Assembly: GCF_024707485.1 (NCBI RefSeq)
Contig: NZ_CP102602.1
Location: 1,488,001-1,552,000 of the forward strand
Reading direction: 5' to 3'
From: Thermococcus thermotolerans
GTDB taxonomy: Archaea; Methanobacteriota_B; Thermococci; Thermococcales; Thermococcaceae
DNA length: 64,000 nucleotides
Shown here: piece by piece, positions 15,084-47,718 of the stretch
Numbering within the stretch: position 1 is the stretch's first letter
Layout of the letters: each line of letters begins with the position of its first letter
Program-made: the position numbers and the translations under genes
Notes under the pieces: model-generated
What the model was told of the DNA's origin: nothing
The model's input: only the letters and a program-made list of their open reading frames with translations
Database searches by the model: none

Positions 15084-16007
15084 TTACTCGATGAGCTTGA
15101 GAAATATTTCTTCCAAACTCGGCTCTTTCACCTGCATCGTAAGGACTTTTGCGCCCTGGGAAGCAACGAAGTCGTGTAGCTCCTCGCGAATGTCATTCTC
15201 GGCAACCACGCGGTACTTGTTCTCACCGAGGGGACTCACGTTCCACCCCGCCAAACCCCAGTCCACGGGCCTGTTGGTCTCAATGACAATGGTATAGCCG
15301 GCCTTCCTCAGGAATTCCCGCTTGATGTTCTCGATGCTATCCTCCAACCGGAGTTTACCCTTAACGATCACTCCAACCGTGTCACAAACCTCTTCAACAT
15401 GAGCCAAAATGTGGCTGGAAAAGAAGACGGTTTTCCCGGCCTTCTTCTGCTCCCTGATGATCTCCTTGAACTCGGCAATACCCCTCGGATCCAGCCCGGT
15501 CATCGGTTCATCGAGGATTAAAAGCTCTGGATCGTTAATCAAAGCCTGAGCCAAAAGAAGCCTCTGACGCATTCCTTTGGAGAACTTGCCAACCTTCCTC
15601 CTTCGAGCTTCTTTCAAACCAACCAGGTCGAGGAGTTCACTTATGCGCTTCTCCTTCTCTGCCCTGGGAATCCCAAAGGAGTCGGCAATGACCTCAAGAG
15701 TCTGCTCTGGCGTTAAAAAATCCCACAGAGTGGCGTGCTCCGGCATGTAACCTATTTTAGCTTTGGCCCTGACGAGCTTACCCTCATCAAACTTCCCGTC
15801 CTTGAAGACCTCCTCGCCAAACAATTCAATCCTCCCCTCCTGGGGGAAGACGAGACCGAGGGTGCTCAGGATTGTAGTGCTCTTGCCAGCGCCGTTCGGC
15901 CCGAGGAAGCCGTACACCTGACCATGCTTAACCTCAAGGTTAAGACCATCCAAAGCCCTAACGTCCCTATAAACCTTAACCAAACCCTCAACCCTCAACA
16001 CGACCAT
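15084..16007 (-). CDS. ABC transporter ATP-binding protein of the ABC-2 exporter
   Basis: 307 residues from ATG 16007, which overlaps the permease stop (TGATG). Walker A is GFLGPNGAGKSTTI (near 35), the signature is FSKGMRQRLLLAQALI, and Walker B is PELLILDEPMTGLDPRG. About 80 extra C-terminal residues match the CcmA/NatA-type tail. It powers the three permeases encoded just upstream in the same operon. The operon order suggests it exports the cysteine-rich peptides from 19.7-20.1 kb, but the link is inferred from position only. Confidence 0.88.
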   Translation of the reverse strand: MVVLRVEGLVKVYRDVRALDGLNLEVKHGQVYGFLGPNGAGKSTTILSTLGLVFPQEGRIELFGEEVFKDGKFDEGKLVRAKAKIGYMPEHATLWDFLTPEQTLEVIADSFGIPRAEKEKRISELLDLVGLKEARRRKVGKFSKGMRQRLLLAQALINDPELLILDEPMTGLDPRGIAEFKEIIREQKKAGKTVFFSSHILAHVEEVCDTVGVIVKGKLRLEDSIENIKREFLRKAGYTIVIETNRPVDWGLAGWNVSPLGENKYRVVAENDIREELHDFVASQGAKVLTMQVKEPSLEEIFLKLIE

Positions 16008-16927
16008 CACCTCAAATCCATTCTTCTGAACCTGAAGAGGGCCGCTCCAAGGTAGATGGGGATAAGCCCAACTATCAGCGCCGTCTGGGCGGAATTGTCA
16101 GCTATGGCCCGCTTAACCCCGATGTACTCAACGGTGTACGTGCCGTCGTCGTTGAAGGTGGTTTTGTCTATGTCCGTGAAGATGTCGAGCATGAGTACCT
16201 GGGGGATGTAGAAGAGGTACTTCAGGTGGTACTCCCTGTAAAGCTCGTCCAGGCGCTCGCGGTAGGCCCTTTTCTCCTCCGGCGAAAGCTTGCTGAAGTC
16301 CCCCCACTTCTCAATCCCGAACTCCTCCTTCGCTTTGTCCTCGGCGAAGCCGTCCACGATCTGGGGCATGACGAGGCCGGTAACGAAGAACAGAACCAGG
16401 GCCAGCCCCAGGGTGGTGTTCGAGGAGCGGACAAAGGTTGAAATCAGCAGACCGAGAGCTAAAAGCTGGAGCATGGTGAGCAGGATTAGCAGGTTCGAGA
16501 GAACCAAATCGCCAGCGAGGGAAGCCGTGAGGGAGAGGCCGTAGTACTTTGTTACCGCGAAGGAGAGCAGTGTTGCGAAGACCATCGCCACGACTATGCT
16601 GAGCGCCTGGCCGAGGAACTTGCCGAGCAGGTACGAGGCCCGTCCGAGGGGCTTGCTGAGGGCAACCCTGACCGTTCCGTTCTCAAGGTCATTATTAACT
16701 GAAGTCGCCCCGGCCATGAGGGCGTAGACGCCGATGAAGAGGAACGCACTGACCGCTATGTAACCCACAAGGCTCGTGACGAGCACTTCCCCCGGATTTG
16801 TGGCACCTTCGAGGTTGTCCCTCACTTCCCTGAAGGCCATGGCGTAGATTAGCAGAATCAAAACCAGTATCAGCCAGAACTTCTTCGTCCTCAGACTTTT
16901 CTTCAGCTCAAGCTCGAACCCCCACAT
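16007..16927 (-). CDS. ABC-2 type permease
   Basis: 306 residues with six membrane helices. VNNDLENGTVRVALSKPLGR (near 90-110) is the conserved amphipathic ABC-2 segment with the SKP-x-x-R motif shared by the next two permeases. The protein ends in RMDLR, the same ending as its neighbours. GAGGTGATAGA precedes the ATG. It lies 4 bp after the upstream permease stop, so the genes are one transcript. Confidence 0.85.
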   Translation of the reverse strand: MWGFELELKKSLRTKKFWLILVLILLIYAMAFREVRDNLEGATNPGEVLVTSLVGYIAVSAFLFIGVYALMAGATSVNNDLENGTVRVALSKPLGRASYLLGKFLGQALSIVVAMVFATLLSFAVTKYYGLSLTASLAGDLVLSNLLILLTMLQLLALGLLISTFVRSSNTTLGLALVLFFVTGLVMPQIVDGFAEDKAKEEFGIEKWGDFSKLSPEEKRAYRERLDELYREYHLKYLFYIPQVLMLDIFTDIDKTTFNDDGTYTVEYIGVKRAIADNSAQTALIVGLIPIYLGAALFRFRRMDLR

Positions 16928-16931
16928 TCTA

Positions 16932-18440
16932 TCACCTCAGGTCGGCTTTCCTGAACCTGAGCCACGAGACGACTAAGTAGACGAACGTCGGAACGACCAG
17001 CATAGCCAGATTACCTTCGTAGTTTAAAATCTTATCCATCTCTGCTGGAGGAAGGTGGCGCCCCCGGAAGAGCGCGGAGCTGAGTACAGCGTACTGAACC
17101 GACGGTGCCGGGAGGTAAAGAGCCTTCTGGGCAAGTTCTTCCGAGCGCCCGAACGAGGCGAGGAAAGCTATCGGGGCAACGACGCCAAGCAGGAAGGCCA
17201 GAACCAGCGAAGCAAAAAGCGCCTTCCTGCCCCTCATGAAGGCCGAAAACAGGTAGCCGAGGGCCAGATACTGGACGAGCGAGAGAAAGAGAAGAAAACC
17301 AAAGACAAGGCCGAGTTCGAGGGTTTTACCCAACGGAGAGCCAAGGTGCAGGGCGTAGGCAACGATGAAAGCAACGTAGAGAATAACTCCAGCCAGCACA
17401 GCAAAGATGTCGCTCAGGAGCGTCCCGAGGAAGAAGTCCCTCCTTCTCAACGGCTTGCTCAGCAAAACTCTAACAGTGCCATTCTCGATGGCCGAGCCTA
17501 TTGAAAGCGCCCCCAGGGGGAGAACCACGAGGGGGAGGAAAGAGCCATTCAGGGTCTGGATTACGGCGTTGAGAAGGCCAGGAAGGCGGTAGATGGAGTA
17601 GTACTTGTCGAGGGTGGCTTTATTTAAAAGCGCCATAAGGGCAGTAAAGGCAACGAACGCCAGGAAGCGCCTGCTCTGGAGACTAAGTCCAAGGAAAACG
17701 CCGTAGAGCCCGCGGGGGGAGAAGGAAAAACCCGGAACTGAGAATGACCCGGGGCTTCTAAGCTCCCTCCTCTTGAAGACTTCCATTCCAACGAGCGACA
17801 GGCCAATGAAAAGGGCCAGAAGCTCACCAACGGCGGTATAGCAGACGGAAAAGTCTTCCCCAATAGAAACGGCCCTCTCAAGGTAAGAAGTTGGGATAAA
17901 GGAATAACCGAACTCCCCAAGGAGAAGGAGAACTACAAACGCTCCAAGCCCGAGGAAAACTCCCGCATCACGGGAGGTTGCGAAGGGAATGAGGAGCAGG
18001 GCGATTCCGAGGACGCCGATTAGCGAGAGCGAAAGGGCGAGGGAACCGATGAGGTAGTCCTCAACCACGAAACCGTGAGCCAGCATCGCGAGCGCTCCAG
18101 AGAGTGTTACTCCCAAAGCTGAAATCAGAGCGAGCTTCATACCCTCAACTGCCCAGTCGAGGAAGTAGCGCCTCCTCGTGAGGGGCTTTGAGAGGAGTAG
18201 AAGGACGTTCCCTCGCTCGAAGTCCGAGCCAAAGCGCGAGAGGAGCAGGATTAAGATTAGGGGAACCAACAGGAACTTGAAAAAGCTGGGGAGCCACTTG
18301 GCGAGCAGGTCTGCTGTGACAAGATGGCCAAGCTCTTCGGCCGGAATATCCGGGTAGCGAGCGGTGAACTTTGATACGTCTATCTCGACCGCTAAGGCGG
18401 GGAAGAGTGAGAGGAGGAAAAGCACGAGCTTATGTCTCAT
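16932..18440 (-). CDS. Double ABC-2 type permease
   Basis: 502 residues from ATG 18440, which overlaps the upstream gene by 4 bp (ATGA) with GGGGTGG as ribosome binding site; the frame stays open 159 codons further upstream only because it crosses the neighbouring gene. Two SKP motifs are present, LLLLSKPLTRRRYFL and VRVLLSKPLRRRDFF, each with its own set of helices, so the protein looks like two fused ABC-2 permease halves. It ends in RKADLR. Confidence 0.82.
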   Translation of the reverse strand: MRHKLVLFLLSLFPALAVEIDVSKFTARYPDIPAEELGHLVTADLLAKWLPSFFKFLLVPLILILLLSRFGSDFERGNVLLLLSKPLTRRRYFLDWAVEGMKLALISALGVTLSGALAMLAHGFVVEDYLIGSLALSLSLIGVLGIALLLIPFATSRDAGVFLGLGAFVVLLLLGEFGYSFIPTSYLERAVSIGEDFSVCYTAVGELLALFIGLSLVGMEVFKRRELRSPGSFSVPGFSFSPRGLYGVFLGLSLQSRRFLAFVAFTALMALLNKATLDKYYSIYRLPGLLNAVIQTLNGSFLPLVVLPLGALSIGSAIENGTVRVLLSKPLRRRDFFLGTLLSDIFAVLAGVILYVAFIVAYALHLGSPLGKTLELGLVFGFLLFLSLVQYLALGYLFSAFMRGRKALFASLVLAFLLGVVAPIAFLASFGRSEELAQKALYLPAPSVQYAVLSSALFRGRHLPPAEMDKILNYEGNLAMLVVPTFVYLVVSWLRFRKADLR

Positions 18441-19666
18441 TCCACGCCACCCCACGCGCTGAGGTCCATCCTCGAAATCCTCAGGGCCGAGACGGAGAGG
18501 GGAACGACTGAGAGGAAGGCAAGTGTTAGGGAGGCCGTTCCCGACCCGATTGCCGGGGCAAAGAGGAGCGCGAGCACGGGGATTAGGACTAAGGCACCCC
18601 TCCTCGTGAACAGCCCCATGGAGAAAGTCAGGGACGCCAGAAAGAAGGCAACCCCATAGGAGAACCCAACAACAGGGGTCGAAATTCCAAAGAGCAGAGA
18701 AGCAACGAGGAGGCGCCTTAGGAGGTAGTTTCTGCCAACGGGCTTGCTGAGGATTAAAACCGGGTTCTCCGAGAGGATTTCCAAGGAAGCGAGGGGCAGG
18801 AGGAAGAGCAGGACAAAGGCCTTGAGGGTTCTCCCAACTGGAAGAACCAGAAGGACAAGAAGGGCCTGGAAGGTTCTTGAGGCCCACAGGCCAGCGAGTT
18901 CTTTTCCAAACCACCAAGGGAGGAACGGTACGTAGAGGGACGGAAGGGAGGGTTTGATAAAGGTTCCGGGCTCGAAGCGCAGGAAGAGGAGAAAGACGAG
19001 CACGGTGAGGGCAAGGAAGGTGACCAGCGTTAGGGAGAGCCTGAGGAGGGCATCGCCCTCACCGGATTCGACCCCTCTCGCGAAGAGCTCAAGCTGCGCC
19101 CCCGGAGAAAGGAAGGCATAGTTGGAGTAGCGCTTTTCAAGCTCCAGCACGAGGGCGTGGTACTCCTCTTTTTTGGCCTCGTAGTCCTCCAGGCTCTTTA
19201 TCCCAAGGGTAGCTTGAGCCTTTTCCTGGGCCTTAATCTGAACGATTCCCGGCGGAACGAAGGTGAGGAGGAGAAACACCAGCACTCCAACCGCCATGGT
19301 TTTCCGGGAGTTCTTCAGCATCAAAGCCGTCAAATAATCCAGAGGCAGGAATGGAAGGGCAAAGAAGGCAAAAAGTGCAGATATCGGGTTAAGGAGGGCA
19401 AAGGGCGCAATTAGGAGGGAAACCAGGAGCAGGTGGGAAAGGGAAATCTCAAGGAACAGGCGCGAGCGTTTGTAGGGCTTGGACATTAAAAGCTGGCAGG
19501 TCCCCCACAGGTCGCCCGAGAACACGATGAAAAGAAAGCCCGCGATAAAATAGGGAATTAGCAAAGCGATGTCGTCGAGAAGCGGAAAGAGCGCTAACCC
19601 CAAGGCGTACGGTAACAACAACCCCTGCTTGAGCTTCATTGCCTCGACTCTCAGCACAGGGTACAC
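18437..19666 (-). CDS. Double ABC-2 type permease, first gene of the exporter
   Basis: 409 residues with about ten hydrophobic helices and two SKP motifs (QLLMSKPYKRSRLF and LILSKPVGRNYLL), again a doubled ABC-2 arrangement. Start is GTG 19666 with a weak GGGGGTAG upstream. It lies 62 bp after the second cysteine-rich peptide gene, on the same strand, with a hairpin in between. The three permeases share motifs and probably came from duplication. Confidence 0.8.
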   Translation of the reverse strand: MYPVLRVEAMKLKQGLLLPYALGLALFPLLDDIALLIPYFIAGFLFIVFSGDLWGTCQLLMSKPYKRSRLFLEISLSHLLLVSLLIAPFALLNPISALFAFFALPFLPLDYLTALMLKNSRKTMAVGVLVFLLLTFVPPGIVQIKAQEKAQATLGIKSLEDYEAKKEEYHALVLELEKRYSNYAFLSPGAQLELFARGVESGEGDALLRLSLTLVTFLALTVLVFLLFLRFEPGTFIKPSLPSLYVPFLPWWFGKELAGLWASRTFQALLVLLVLPVGRTLKAFVLLFLLPLASLEILSENPVLILSKPVGRNYLLRRLLVASLLFGISTPVVGFSYGVAFFLASLTFSMGLFTRRGALVLIPVLALLFAPAIGSGTASLTLAFLSVVPLSVSALRISRMDLSAWGGVE

Positions 19667-19690
19667 GAAACTACCCCCGATTAATAAATT

Positions 19691-19718
19691 CCCATTTCCA
19701 TTAAAAATTGAAAATGGG
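19691..19718 (-). terminator. Hairpin between the peptide genes and the exporter genes
   Basis: The 7-bp arms CCCATTT and AAATGGG are separated by a 14-nt AT-rich loop. On the minus strand the hairpin follows peptide 2 by about 10 bp. It could partly terminate transcription or protect the mRNA end, so that small peptides are made in excess over the exporter. There is no strong U tract directly after it. Confidence 0.35.
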
Positions 19719-19728
19719 ATTTAAAAAA

Positions 19729-19914
19729 CTAAAATGGATCCAAATCACACAGGTCCAGCTCACCACATGTGTCTATGAGGAGACAACCTCCTGCATCGTA
19801 TCCACAGTCATCCCACAGTCTGCATCCGCCGTTATCTTCTATGCAGGAATCACTGAGCCAACAGTACGGCTGAATGGTGTGTGAACTTGTAGTCTTTGTA
19901 AGTCTGCGGAACAA
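19729..19914 (-). CDS. Cysteine-rich RiPP precursor peptide 2 (ranthipeptide-like)
   Basis: 61 residues from a TTG at 19914 preceded by TAGGAGGG, beginning MFRRLTK like peptide 1 (MFKKLN). Seven cysteines at 18, 24, 31, 37, 44, 50 and 56 form repeats CWLSDSC, CRLWDDC and CLLIDTC joined by Gly-Gly linkers. Each cysteine is followed by Asp at +4 (18, 31, 44, 50) or +3 (24, 37, 56). The repeat and the neighbouring radical SAM gene mark it as a substrate peptide. In characterised ranthipeptides such as freyrasin, CX3D motifs receive Cys-to-Asp beta-carbon thioethers. Sactipeptide-type links or disulfides are alternatives. Confidence 0.82.
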   Translation of the reverse strand: MFRRLTKTTSSHTIQPYCWLSDSCIEDNGGCRLWDDCGYDAGGCLLIDTCGELDLCDLDPF

Positions 19915-19933
19915 TTCACACCCTCCTAAGAGC

Positions 19934-20098
19934 TCAGTTGTAATCCCTGCCGCAGGAATCCCTTATCTTGCAGTCACCGTGGTCATAGTCGCAACTGTCA
20001 AAAAGCCAGCAACCTCCACTGTCAATGGTCTTGCAGCTATCTGATATCCAACACAGGGGCTCCACCGGGTTGCCGCCGGCGTTCAGCTTCTTAAACAC
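19934..20098 (-). CDS. Cysteine-rich RiPP precursor peptide 1 (ranthipeptide-like)
   Basis: 54 residues from a GTG at 20098 that overlaps the end of the radical SAM gene by 8 bp. A perfect AAGGAGGTGAT ribosome binding site lies 6 bp upstream, inside that gene. Six cysteines at 16, 22, 30, 36, 43 and 49 form CWISDSC, CWLFDSC and CKIRDSC. Asp lies at +4 after cysteines 16, 22, 30 and 43 and at +3 after 36 and 49. The leader (about 1-15) is Cys-free. The non-ATG start and small size make it easy to miss. The paralogous pair directly after a SPASM enzyme strongly supports a RiPP precursor. Confidence 0.85.
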   Translation of the reverse strand: MFKKLNAGGNPVEPLCWISDSCKTIDSGGCWLFDSCDYDHGDCKIRDSCGRDYN

Positions 20099-21621: not shown

Positions 21622-22620
21622 TTAAGATTTTTCTACCTCGCTAAAACGACTAAAAACAAGCAGAAATACATCCTCTAGTGATAATTCCTCCACCTTAATC
21701 TGAAGGGCACCCTTTGAGGAGAGAAACCTCACGAACTCATCAACTTCTTCGACCTTAAGGTACGCCACGACATGGGTATAACCGTTCTTAAAGGTGCACT
21801 TCACGAGACCCTCCCAGCTGCAGTCGAACTTTCCCTCCACCAGAGCCACAACCTTCTTATCAATCGGAGCCCTGAGCTTCCTGCTTATCTCCTCGGGCTT
21901 TCCCTCCAGGATAGGCCTCTTGTTGAAGAGCAGAACCCTGTCGCTCAGCTTCTCCGCCTCCCCAAGGTCGTGGGTGGTGAGGATAACCGTTGTCCCAAAG
22001 TCACGGACTAAGCTTAATATTGCATCATGTATCTCGCTCTTGGTTATCACATCGAGAAAAACCGTCGGCTCGTCGAGTATGAGGTATCTGGGCTGTACCA
22101 CAAGGGCGGAGGCGATGTAAACCTTCTGCTTCATTCCGGCCGAGAGCTTCTGGTACCACTCGTCCCTCTTCTCCCACAGGTTCAGCAGCTTGAGCGCGTA
22201 CTCTATGCGCTCCCCTATCTCACCCTCCGGGACCTTCCACAGCCTCGCGATGAACTGGAGGTTTCGTTGAACGCTCAGACGCCACTGGAATATGCCCCAC
22301 ATGTCCCTCTCGCCGGTGAAAACGGTGAACATCTTGCTCGCAACTTTGCCGTGCTCCCTAAAGCTGTCGTGGCCGTCGATGAGCAGTTTTCCAGAACTCG
22401 GCTCGAGGAGGCCGTTGGCGATTTTACAGAGGGTTGTCTTTCCCGCGCCGTTGGGGCCGAGGAGGCCGAATATCTCCCCCACCCTCACCCGGAAGCTCAG
22501 GTCTATGAGGGCCGGAATCTCCTCCCTGGGCTTTCCGAGAAAATCACGAAGGCTACCCAGATCGAAGAAGCCCCTGAAAGGGGGCGGATAGTACTTGGTG
22601 AGATGCTCTGCTTCTATCAT
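21622..22620 (-). CDS. ABC transporter ATP-binding protein
   Basis: 332 residues. Walker A is GLLGPNGAGKTTLCKI (near 55), the signature is KLSAGMKQKVYIASALV and Walker B is PRYLILDEPTVFLDV. The N-terminus has an insertion, YYPPPFRGFFDLGSLRDFLG, seen in ABC-2 ATPases. GAGGTGG precedes the ATG. It lies 9 bp after its permease. Located just upstream of the maturase operon, it might take part in peptide export or immunity, but it may be unrelated. Confidence 0.88.
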   Translation of the reverse strand: MIEAEHLTKYYPPPFRGFFDLGSLRDFLGKPREEIPALIDLSFRVRVGEIFGLLGPNGAGKTTLCKIANGLLEPSSGKLLIDGHDSFREHGKVASKMFTVFTGERDMWGIFQWRLSVQRNLQFIARLWKVPEGEIGERIEYALKLLNLWEKRDEWYQKLSAGMKQKVYIASALVVQPRYLILDEPTVFLDVITKSEIHDAILSLVRDFGTTVILTTHDLGEAEKLSDRVLLFNKRPILEGKPEEISRKLRAPIDKKVVALVEGKFDCSWEGLVKCTFKNGYTHVVAYLKVEEVDEFVRFLSSKGALQIKVEELSLEDVFLLVFSRFSEVEKS

Positions 22621-22629
22621 CTGACCACC

Positions 22630-23427
22630 TCACACGTGCCCGAGGGTTCCCAGCTGCATTGCCTTTCCAACGCCCCACCGAAAGGTCGCGATTCCAACCA
22701 GGAGCATGACGCCCGTGGTCAGGGCAAGGTTCACGAAGCCCGGCCAGATCTGGGACACTGAATAGCCCCCGCCCATCGTCAGCCTGGCCATCTCAAGAAT
22801 GTACCTCTCGGGGTGTATCTTGGAAATAGGCTGGAGCCACCAGGGGAGAACTTGAGGAGGAAAGTAGAGACCGCTCACGAGCTGGGAGGTGAGGTTGAGG
22901 AACCAGTTTATCGGGTCCTGCCTGGCCTTGGTCGCCGCCCGAAAGCCGGCGGAGAAAAGTTCAAGGGCGAAGGTGAGGGTGAAGCCCGCGAGGATAACAA
23001 GCAAAGCACCGAGGTTGATGTGTATGACCAGGCCGTAGAAGAGAACGAAGATCACAGTTATCAGGCCCATTATCATAAGGCTCCAGACGACGTTCCAGGC
23101 GTTTATTCCCACGAAGATCGCCACCATTCCGGCGGGGGAGGCGTAGAGCATCGGGAAGCTGCGCCCAATCAGGAGCTTGGAAAGGCTGCCCCGCGGAAGG
23201 AATATTATGTTGTGCACGATGAAGCCTATCAGAAAGAACTGGAGGAAGGAGTCGGTGCCGTACTGCTCGATGTTGGCGTCTATCGTTACCAGGCTGGCGA
23301 ATATCCCCATCACTGCAACCTGGATTAGAAGGCCTATCAGATAGCTGACCACGTCCCAGCGGTAGCTGAAAAAGACCTCCCTCTGGACCCTGAAGAACTC
23401 GCGGACTATTCTAAGGCCGTCCATCAT
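22630..23427 (-). CDS. ABC-2 type permease
   Basis: 265 residues from ATG 23427 with six membrane helices and an ABC-2 layout (FLNLTSQLVSGLYFPPQVLP near 180). The open frame starts at 23487, but a TATA-like CTTTTAAAC at about 23455-23463 places transcription downstream of that codon, so 23427, with a very short leader, is the better start. Paired with the ATPase 9 bp downstream. Confidence 0.85.
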   Translation of the reverse strand: MMDGLRIVREFFRVQREVFFSYRWDVVSYLIGLLIQVAVMGIFASLVTIDANIEQYGTDSFLQFFLIGFIVHNIIFLPRGSLSKLLIGRSFPMLYASPAGMVAIFVGINAWNVVWSLMIMGLITVIFVLFYGLVIHINLGALLVILAGFTLTFALELFSAGFRAATKARQDPINWFLNLTSQLVSGLYFPPQVLPWWLQPISKIHPERYILEMARLTMGGGYSVSQIWPGFVNLALTTGVMLLVGIATFRWGVGKAMQLGTLGHV

Positions 23428-23497
23428 TTCAACCGAAAAAAGTCGGAAGGGAGGTTTAAAAGAATATCGGCCCCACAATGGAAACATCCATTAAAGC

Positions 23498-46117: not shown

Positions 46118-46167
46118 GGCATAAGGCATTTACATGCACTAGAATGAACTTATATGGGGGTGCTTCA

Positions 46168-47718
46168 ATGGGCATGTTGGTGGACTTTATCAACTGGTTG
46201 GACGGAGAAGTCTGGGGCCTGCCGATGATAGTACTGCTGGTGGGCACCGGGCTCTTCCTGACAATAATACTGAAGGCGATTCAGTTCCGCCGCCTCGGGT
46301 GGTCCATAAGGTTCACCCTCTTCGAGGGCAGAAAAAAGAAAGGTGAGGGCGACATCACCCCGTTCCAGGCACTCATGGCAACGATAGCCGGAACCGTTGG
46401 TATCGGAAACATCGCAGGTGTCGCAACGGCTATCCACTACGGTGGCCCCGGAGCCCTCTTCTGGATGTGGGTCACGGCGCTCGTAGGAATGGCAACCAGG
46501 TACTCAGAGGGTCTTCTCGGTGTCGCCTTCAGGGACAAGTTGCCAGACGGTACCATGATAGGCGGGACTTTCAACTTCCTCGAAAAGGGCTTCGCCATGG
46601 AGAACATACCAAAGACCGGCAAATATCTCGCCTCGATATTCACCCTGTTGTTTGCTCTGTTCGTTGCCAAGTCTGCATTAAGCTTCAGCGGTGCGCTTCA
46701 GATCGGCGCAATAATAGTCGCCGTACTGTTTGCAATACTGGGCATCTTCCTCCTCAAGGACGACGCCTACCCGACTCTCGGAAAGGTGCTGGCGGTACTC
46801 TTCGCGCTCTTCGCGGCCATAGCTGCCTTTGGTATAGGAAACATGACCCAGTCCAACTCAGTTGCTGACGCAATGAAGACGGCATTCAACGTCCCGATGT
46901 GGGTCACAGGGCTTGTACTGGCGGTTTTGACATTCATAGTTATCGTCGGCGGTATCAAGAGGATCGGTGAAGTTGCTGAAGCCCTCGTTCCATTCATGGC
47001 AATAATCTACTTCCTCTTCGCCATCGGCGTCTGGATAAAGTTCGCAGGAAAGCTACCAAGCGCCATCGCACTTATCATTAACGATGCCTTCACCGGAAAG
47101 GCCGTCGCCGGCGGGGCCATCGGAAACGTCATCCTCTGGGGTGTCAAGAGGGGTCTGTTCTCCAACGAGGCCGGTCTCGGTACGGCAACCCTTGCCCACG
47201 CCGCGGCCAAGACCGACCACCCGTCGAGGCAGGCGCACGTTGCAATGCTCGGTCCGTTCATCGACACCCTGATAATCTGTACCCTCACCGGCGTCTCGAT
47301 AGTTGTCACCGAGGCTTACCTCAACCCGGAGCTCAACGGCGCACCGCTCACCCAGGCAGCCTTCGCGGCAGCCTTCGGACATGCGGGCGAGATAATGGTT
47401 GCAATAGGCATCGTGCTGTTCGCCTACTCTACGATACTCGCCTGGTCGTTCTACGGCAGGCAGAACGTCATGTACCTCGCCAAGTGGCTTGAGCAGGACC
47501 CAGAGAAGTTTGCCAAGCTCTATCCCAGGCTGCACCTCATCTACAACCTGCTCTTCGTCGTCTTCATCTACATCGGTTCAGTGACCAAGCTCGAAACGGT
47601 CTGGACTTTCTCAGACATGATGAACGGACTGATGGCAATACCGAACCTCATAGGCCTGCTCGTGCTGTTCTGGTTCGTCAGAGAAAAGACCGACGAGTTC
47701 ATCGCGGCCAACCCGTGA
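46168..47718 (+). CDS. AGCS-family sodium/alanine (glycine) symporter
   Basis: 516 residues from ATG 46168 with GGGGGTG 5 bp upstream (an ATG at 46144 is in the same frame without such a site). About eleven membrane helices. TIAGTVGIGNIAGVATAIHY and GPGALFWMWVTALVGMATRY are hallmark AGCS sequences, as is GLFSNEAGLGTATLAHAAA. It imports alanine or glycine with Na+. A T-rich stretch at 47722-47742 could end the transcript, but the next gene starts only 39 bp on. Confidence 0.92.
   Translation: MGMLVDFINWLDGEVWGLPMIVLLVGTGLFLTIILKAIQFRRLGWSIRFTLFEGRKKKGEGDITPFQALMATIAGTVGIGNIAGVATAIHYGGPGALFWMWVTALVGMATRYSEGLLGVAFRDKLPDGTMIGGTFNFLEKGFAMENIPKTGKYLASIFTLLFALFVAKSALSFSGALQIGAIIVAVLFAILGIFLLKDDAYPTLGKVLAVLFALFAAIAAFGIGNMTQSNSVADAMKTAFNVPMWVTGLVLAVLTFIVIVGGIKRIGEVAEALVPFMAIIYFLFAIGVWIKFAGKLPSAIALIINDAFTGKAVAGGAIGNVILWGVKRGLFSNEAGLGTATLAHAAAKTDHPSRQAHVAMLGPFIDTLIICTLTGVSIVVTEAYLNPELNGAPLTQAAFAAAFGHAGEIMVAIGIVLFAYSTILAWSFYGRQNVMYLAKWLEQDPEKFAKLYPRLHLIYNLLFVVFIYIGSVTKLETVWTFSDMMNGLMAIPNLIGLLVLFWFVREKTDEFIAANP

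Follow-up and report, generated by a model that had tools for sequence, protein, structure and literature searches.

The locus described here raises the question of what is made from two short reading frames in which every cysteine has an aspartate three or four residues downstream, and to what use the product is put. The frames lie in a window (the whole stretch of 64,000 nucleotides of DNA that was analysed) of a complete 2.07-Mb archaeal genome, whose closest named relatives at the locus are Thermococcus sp. On the minus strand the genes follow one another as ABC-2 permease, ABC ATPase, radical SAM/SPASM protein, the precursor peptides P1 and P2, M409, M484, M306 and ABC ATPase, and most of this order is kept in related genomes. 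P1 (19934..20098, minus; 54 aa, 6 Cys) starts with GTG, carries the leader MFKKLNAGGNPVEP and reads MFKKLNAGGNPVEPLCWISDSCKTIDSGGCWLFDSCDYDHGDCKIRDSCGRDYN; P2 (19729..19914, minus; 61 aa, 7 Cys) starts with TTG, carries the leader MFRRLTKTT.. and reads MFRRLTKTTSSHTIQPYCWLSDSCIEDNGGCRLWDDCGYDAGGCLLIDTCGELDLCDLDPF. A strong Shine-Dalgarno site precedes both genes at normal distance (GGAGGTGAT, GGAGGGTGTGA), and an 8-nt overlap joins the start of P1 to the stop of the maturase gene. Our answer, to which we assign a probability of about 0.77, is an archaeal RiPP operon whose peptides would receive in-line Cys-to-Asp rings, lose their leader and leave the cell through an ABC-2 system, likely serving in antagonism or signalling.

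The preliminary description of this DNA had claimed an Asp at +3 or +4 of every cysteine, with X3 and X2 largely alternating in P2, and both statements are right. The 13/13 motifs of the two peptides comprise eight CX3D (Asp at +4) and five CX2D (Asp at +3); the core of P1 has four CX3D and two CX2D (X3,X3,X3,X2,X3,X2) and that of P2 four CX3D and three CX2D (X3,X2,X3,X2,X3,X3,X2). When the cysteines were held fixed and the other core residues shuffled, a mean of 5.6/13 and a maximum of 12 were obtained, and 13/13 never appeared in 200,000 trials. Neither P1 nor P2 matched any NCBIfam model, nif11 included, and an assignment of P2 to PF23601 (DUF7140; E 0.016, under the gathering score) was rejected. 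We also surveyed 396 ORFs with at least five Cys in 0.97 Mb of sequence, a non-random sample picked around such enzymes; D/E at +2 to +5 of all Cys was confined there to precursors beside PapB-type enzymes and two other ORFs, the first being the homologous precursor in G004, where the locus no longer has its enzyme, and the second a window ORF (46165-46437) that looks like a chance case.

Conservation of the Asp residues in homologues had been proposed as a check, and no free variation was found. Clade A loci with one to three precursors each occur in G022, G035, G018, G025, G070, G079, JdFR-02 (L056) and AUK126 (L057), and in nine Thermococcus-type genomes the precursor leader (MFKKLN..) is kept and the cores diverge. 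Across 18 precursors, which are not independent given the closeness of G018, G022 and G025, 113/113 cysteines have D/E at +2 to +5 (mean 75 and maximum 88 in 5,000 shuffles), and each can be assigned its own distinct acceptor. It is the spacing that varies: Asp at +3 is commonest (52), followed by +4 (42), and a few Glu acceptors are present in clade A (CNVE, CAFGE, CTSE). CX2D had been thought unusual; it dominates in several relatives, the P2 peptides of G018 and G022 having runs of five, and PapB cross-links CXnD with n = 0-6 in vitro (PMC9413430). In the P1 pair of L056 and L057, changes at Cys/Asp codons number 8 synonymous to 1 non-synonymous, against 4 to 20 at other codons, the single Asp lost being a surplus one (CIDYD vs CIKID). 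Between P2 and its G004 homologue, 24/26 changed core codons are synonymous and 2 non-synonymous, with 9/9 synonymous at Cys/Asp, and P2 is therefore a selected gene. A deeper relative in G048 shows CX3D/CX2D alternation like P2, clade B precursors (CGALD, CPFPE, CWWPE, CYRPE) are mostly CX3D/E, and those of clade C are tiny, often tandem and have CX4D in all ten. The Cys-then-acid rule is thus general and its spacing clade-dependent, aside from exceptions in clade C, where two second Cys and a stray one in the leader break it. The reversed order, with Asp upstream of Cys, was rejected: D stands at -2 of 57/113 cysteines as the end of the preceding unit, several first or inner Cys break an upstream rule but none breaks the downstream one, and PapB rejects D-C (PMC9413430).

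Several side observations concern other loci. Downstream of clade C maturases, tandem tiny precursors (~30-40 aa, CX4D..CE) are found at L039 6593-7092, followed there by an MFS-like gene, and at L101 7527-7764. A clade C maturase with an MFS transporter lies on a Thermococcus nautili plasmid (L116 4941-7980); plasmids are thus one vehicle for this branch. The window's own genome has a second candidate RiPP locus (L031 2109-4994; G000:C1 near 363,000) with a 502-aa radical SAM protein next to a 412-aa ORF, together with an ABC ATPase and a 51-aa peptide in which Cys, Gly and Ala abound. A TIGR04463/Clo7bot/CefB-like maturase has beside it three peptides (L110 2209-2782) in which about every fifth residue is Cys and the +3 residue varies (D, E, Q, R, N), and at L102 6871-7083 (G079) a 70-aa peptide with 12 Cys immediately precedes another radical SAM protein.

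The enzyme expected to act on P1 and P2 is the radical SAM/SPASM peptide maturase encoded directly upstream of P1 (20091..21542, minus; 483 aa). Its CX3CX2C motif (C109, C113, C116) and seven SPASM cysteines (C341, C359, C397, C400, C406, C410, C429) are all invariant in 18 homologues. Against NCBIfam models it scores 280.7 bits for the nif11-like rSAM maturase (TIGR04064, curated cut-off 518.7), 279.9 for PapB (NF047865, 340), 273.1 for QhpD (TIGR03906, 453) and 253.0 for SCIFF (TIGR03974, 425); falling below the PapB cut-off it is not classed as PapB, and since it stays under every curated cut-off, its substrate chemistry is assigned by analogy. None of the enzymes in 115 genomes of the phylum passes the PapB cut-off. 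The AlphaFold2 model (mean pLDDT 81) finds its best fold match in CteB (5why/5wgg; TM 0.75-0.76 by query length). Residues about 9-72 are modelled as beta-beta-beta-alpha-alpha-alpha (pLDDT mostly 80-94 in this block), the alignment with CteB starting at residue 9, and we predict an RRE-like N-terminus as a candidate leader-binding domain. Three Thermococcaceae clades (A, including the window, B and C) are monophyletic (support 100/99); a tree with QhpD, nif11, SCIFF and PapB references has long branches and gave these clades no settled place. A scan of genome contigs retrieved just two further close relatives. As a separate observation, an enzyme of an Anaerococcus plasmid (L119) passes the PapB cut-off at 359.1 bits and has upstream a 50-aa candidate precursor (L119 2228-2380) starting MFEKINLGNN, whose MFEKINLG resembles the archaeal leader, a likeness that is suggestive only.

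The locus may be compared with described systems. As in ranthipeptides, a radical SAM/SPASM maturase is encoded with the precursor and the core holds Cys together with conserved acceptors (113/113). With freyrasin (PapA/PapB of Paenibacillus polymyxa), itself a ranthipeptide, it shares a SPASM maturase whose neighbouring precursor is Cys-rich, repeats Cys-Xn-Asp and has an Asn conserved in its leader; however, freyrasin has six CX3D, some of them nested, whereas P1 and P2 mix CX2D with CX3D in line, so that 5/13 acceptors depart from the all-CX3D PapA type. The archaeal host, the usual presence of two precursors, cassette swapping and the sub-threshold PapB score (279.9 vs 340) set the locus further apart. 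QhpD, which acts in the maturation of quinohemoprotein amine dehydrogenase, is 33% identical to the maturase over nearly its full length (Paracoccus enzyme), and in both systems the maturase gene overlaps the substrate gene. QhpD forms Cys-to-Asp/Glu thioethers in QhpC. The latter is, however, an enzyme subunit with longer spacings, the archaeal score is far from the QhpD cut-off (273.1 vs 453), and no QhpA/B/C genes were found in the neighbourhood of the maturase. The thioether-forming SCIFF/CteB system of Clostridia offers the best structural match, CteB combining radical SAM and SPASM parts with an RRE like the one predicted here; yet in the SCIFF precursor the six Cys form no repeat with Asp, and the archaeal enzyme reaches 253.0 of the 425 required. 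The nif11-like maturase gives the highest NCBIfam score and has a similar architecture, but P1 and P2 lack a nif11-type leader and the score (280.7) is under its cut-off of 518.7.

The earlier suggestion of freyrasin-like Cys-to-Asp thioethers is supported by a PapB/QhpD/SCIFF-type SPASM neighbour and by acceptors kept in 113/113 cases; from the enzyme family we infer that cross-linking by the maturase is likely, and the carbon position would follow by the same analogy. In vitro, PapB cross-links Cys-Xn-Asp for n = 0-6 (to completion for n = 1-5), accepts Glu and forms rings either in line or nested, and RRE binding has been proposed for an Asn conserved in the leader (PMC9413430); the thiol of Cys binds to one auxiliary cluster, and C3 of Asp is the site attacked by the dAdo radical (PMC10470005). 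On this model the archaeal maturase would join each Cys to its Asp repeatedly along the core, giving up to six rings in P1 and seven in P2 and a predicted mass loss of up to 12.09 Da and 14.11 Da, respectively. A strongly knotted peptide had been envisaged; as the acceptor is nearly always reached before another Cys occurs, consecutive small rings, side by side, are predicted instead. It is improbable, in our view, that the enzyme performs sactipeptide-type or other radical chemistry, linking Cys to alpha-carbons or altering Asp in some other way, with Asp retained, for example, for substrate recognition. Related SPASM families do make several bond types, and, by the title of 5wgg, the first description of CteB itself was framed around sactipeptides, but only Asp/Glu is conserved within a set distance downstream, it is what PapB and QhpD are known to use as acceptor, and the nearest scored families include Cys-to-Asp/Glu maturases. 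After ring formation the leader would be cut off by a protease encoded elsewhere, no dedicated peptidase being found near the locus. The processed product would then be exported by one of two ABC-2 systems: that upstream of the maturase, with a DrrB-like permease (22630..23487, minus; true start probably ~20 codons in) and a DrrA-like ATPase (21622..22620, minus), or that downstream, with the ABC-2 type permeases M484 (16932..18386, minus; start codon uncertain) and M306 (16007..16927, minus) and an ATPase (15084..16010, minus).

The use of such peptides may be approached through the way their genes vary. In the closer clade A loci the DNA is ~85-95% identical as far as some 10-35 nt into P1 and is usually unalignable thereafter until M484, the conserved flank, where identity resumes at ~72-85%. 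This variable segment (18437-20060 in the window; also in L065, L064, L067, L066 and L136) holds the precursor cores and a type-specific gene, and is replaced as a unit between species. The window's type-specific gene is M409 (18437..19666, minus), a polytopic membrane protein with ~11 hydrophobic segments and no Pfam match; this type recurs in G004, the M409 pair being 55% identical and the P2 cores nearly identical. One cassette type, with a 122-131-aa lipoprotein-like protein (LGGC or LGC lipobox), is common to G018, G022 and G025 only, those of G035 and G070 contain two membrane proteins and a permease-like protein, respectively, and in the G079 cassette no type-specific gene was seen. G022 and G025 have a second copy of the maturase 3' end (107-114 nt; sharing 99% and 92% identity with the other copy; L066 9502-9600 and L067 17932-18030), preceding a third precursor in G025 and the contig end in G022, suggesting the footprint of cassette gain by recombination there. 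The swapping itself suggests a peptide travelling with a cognate immunity or transport partner, for which M409 is a candidate; the cassette-specific membrane protein or lipoprotein would fill that part, immunity by the linked gene being our hypothesis. More tentatively still, and with the odds rather against it, the whole may be a swappable specificity cassette, in which multi-ring Cys-to-Asp peptides of hyperthermophilic archaea with natural CX2D rings are exchanged, together with a cognate immunity protein, between constant maturase and exporters by recombination at the maturase 3' end.

The locus is patchily distributed, being present in 7/61 genomes of the genus, with precursors in 8, which fits a conflict or recognition system. 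At the sites in G004 and G008 (L136 4306-4494; L044 5597-5761) most of the maturase is lost: the G008 copy is decayed, and in G004 the enzyme is a 21-residue remnant although an M409 homologue and a P2 homologue under purifying selection are kept, either through recent loss, or since the peptide is useful without the enzyme, or by another enzyme handling P2. Both sites also have a similar protein pair (340-345 and 393 aa). Retention of P2 in G004, and the ability of repeated Cys/Asp to ligate a metal, would suit a metal-binding (iron, zinc) or disulfide-rich small peptide next to a radical SAM enzyme acting elsewhere. We give this little credence: in 9/9 genomes with the enzyme the first precursor directly follows the maturase and overlaps its end, the conserved leader and divergent core are RiPP-like, and the odd and varying Cys numbers (5, 6, 7, 8) are unsuited to complete disulfide pairing or a fixed metal site. 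Within the ring-forming reading, likely use would be antagonism or signalling between close relatives. That the same chemistry yields a housekeeping or signalling peptide, not an antagonistic one, has a chance not far short of even; two ABC-2 systems could serve signalling, but the patchy presence (7/61), the decayed loci and a core swapped along with a linked gene for a membrane protein or lipoprotein fit conflict systems better.

No paper dealing with Thermococcales RiPPs turned up in full-text literature searches, and archaeal ranthipeptide clusters have been reported in bulk by one survey (PMC12144867). Chemistry of this kind is known, but the archaeal family, the spacing of its rings and the exchange of cassettes between species appear undescribed. 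If our reading is true, it would establish natural CX2D and mixed-spacing thioether rings and place ranthipeptide chemistry firmly in hyperthermophilic archaea. To our knowledge, few RiPP products come from such organisms. The locus would likewise be a source of heat-adapted maturases for thioether-ringed peptides, and the natural spacings within one enzyme family (X1-X4, with Asp and Glu) test the natural use of the promiscuity that PapB displays in vitro. Cassette exchange, finally, would provide a testable model for peptide-based competition among Thermococcus species.
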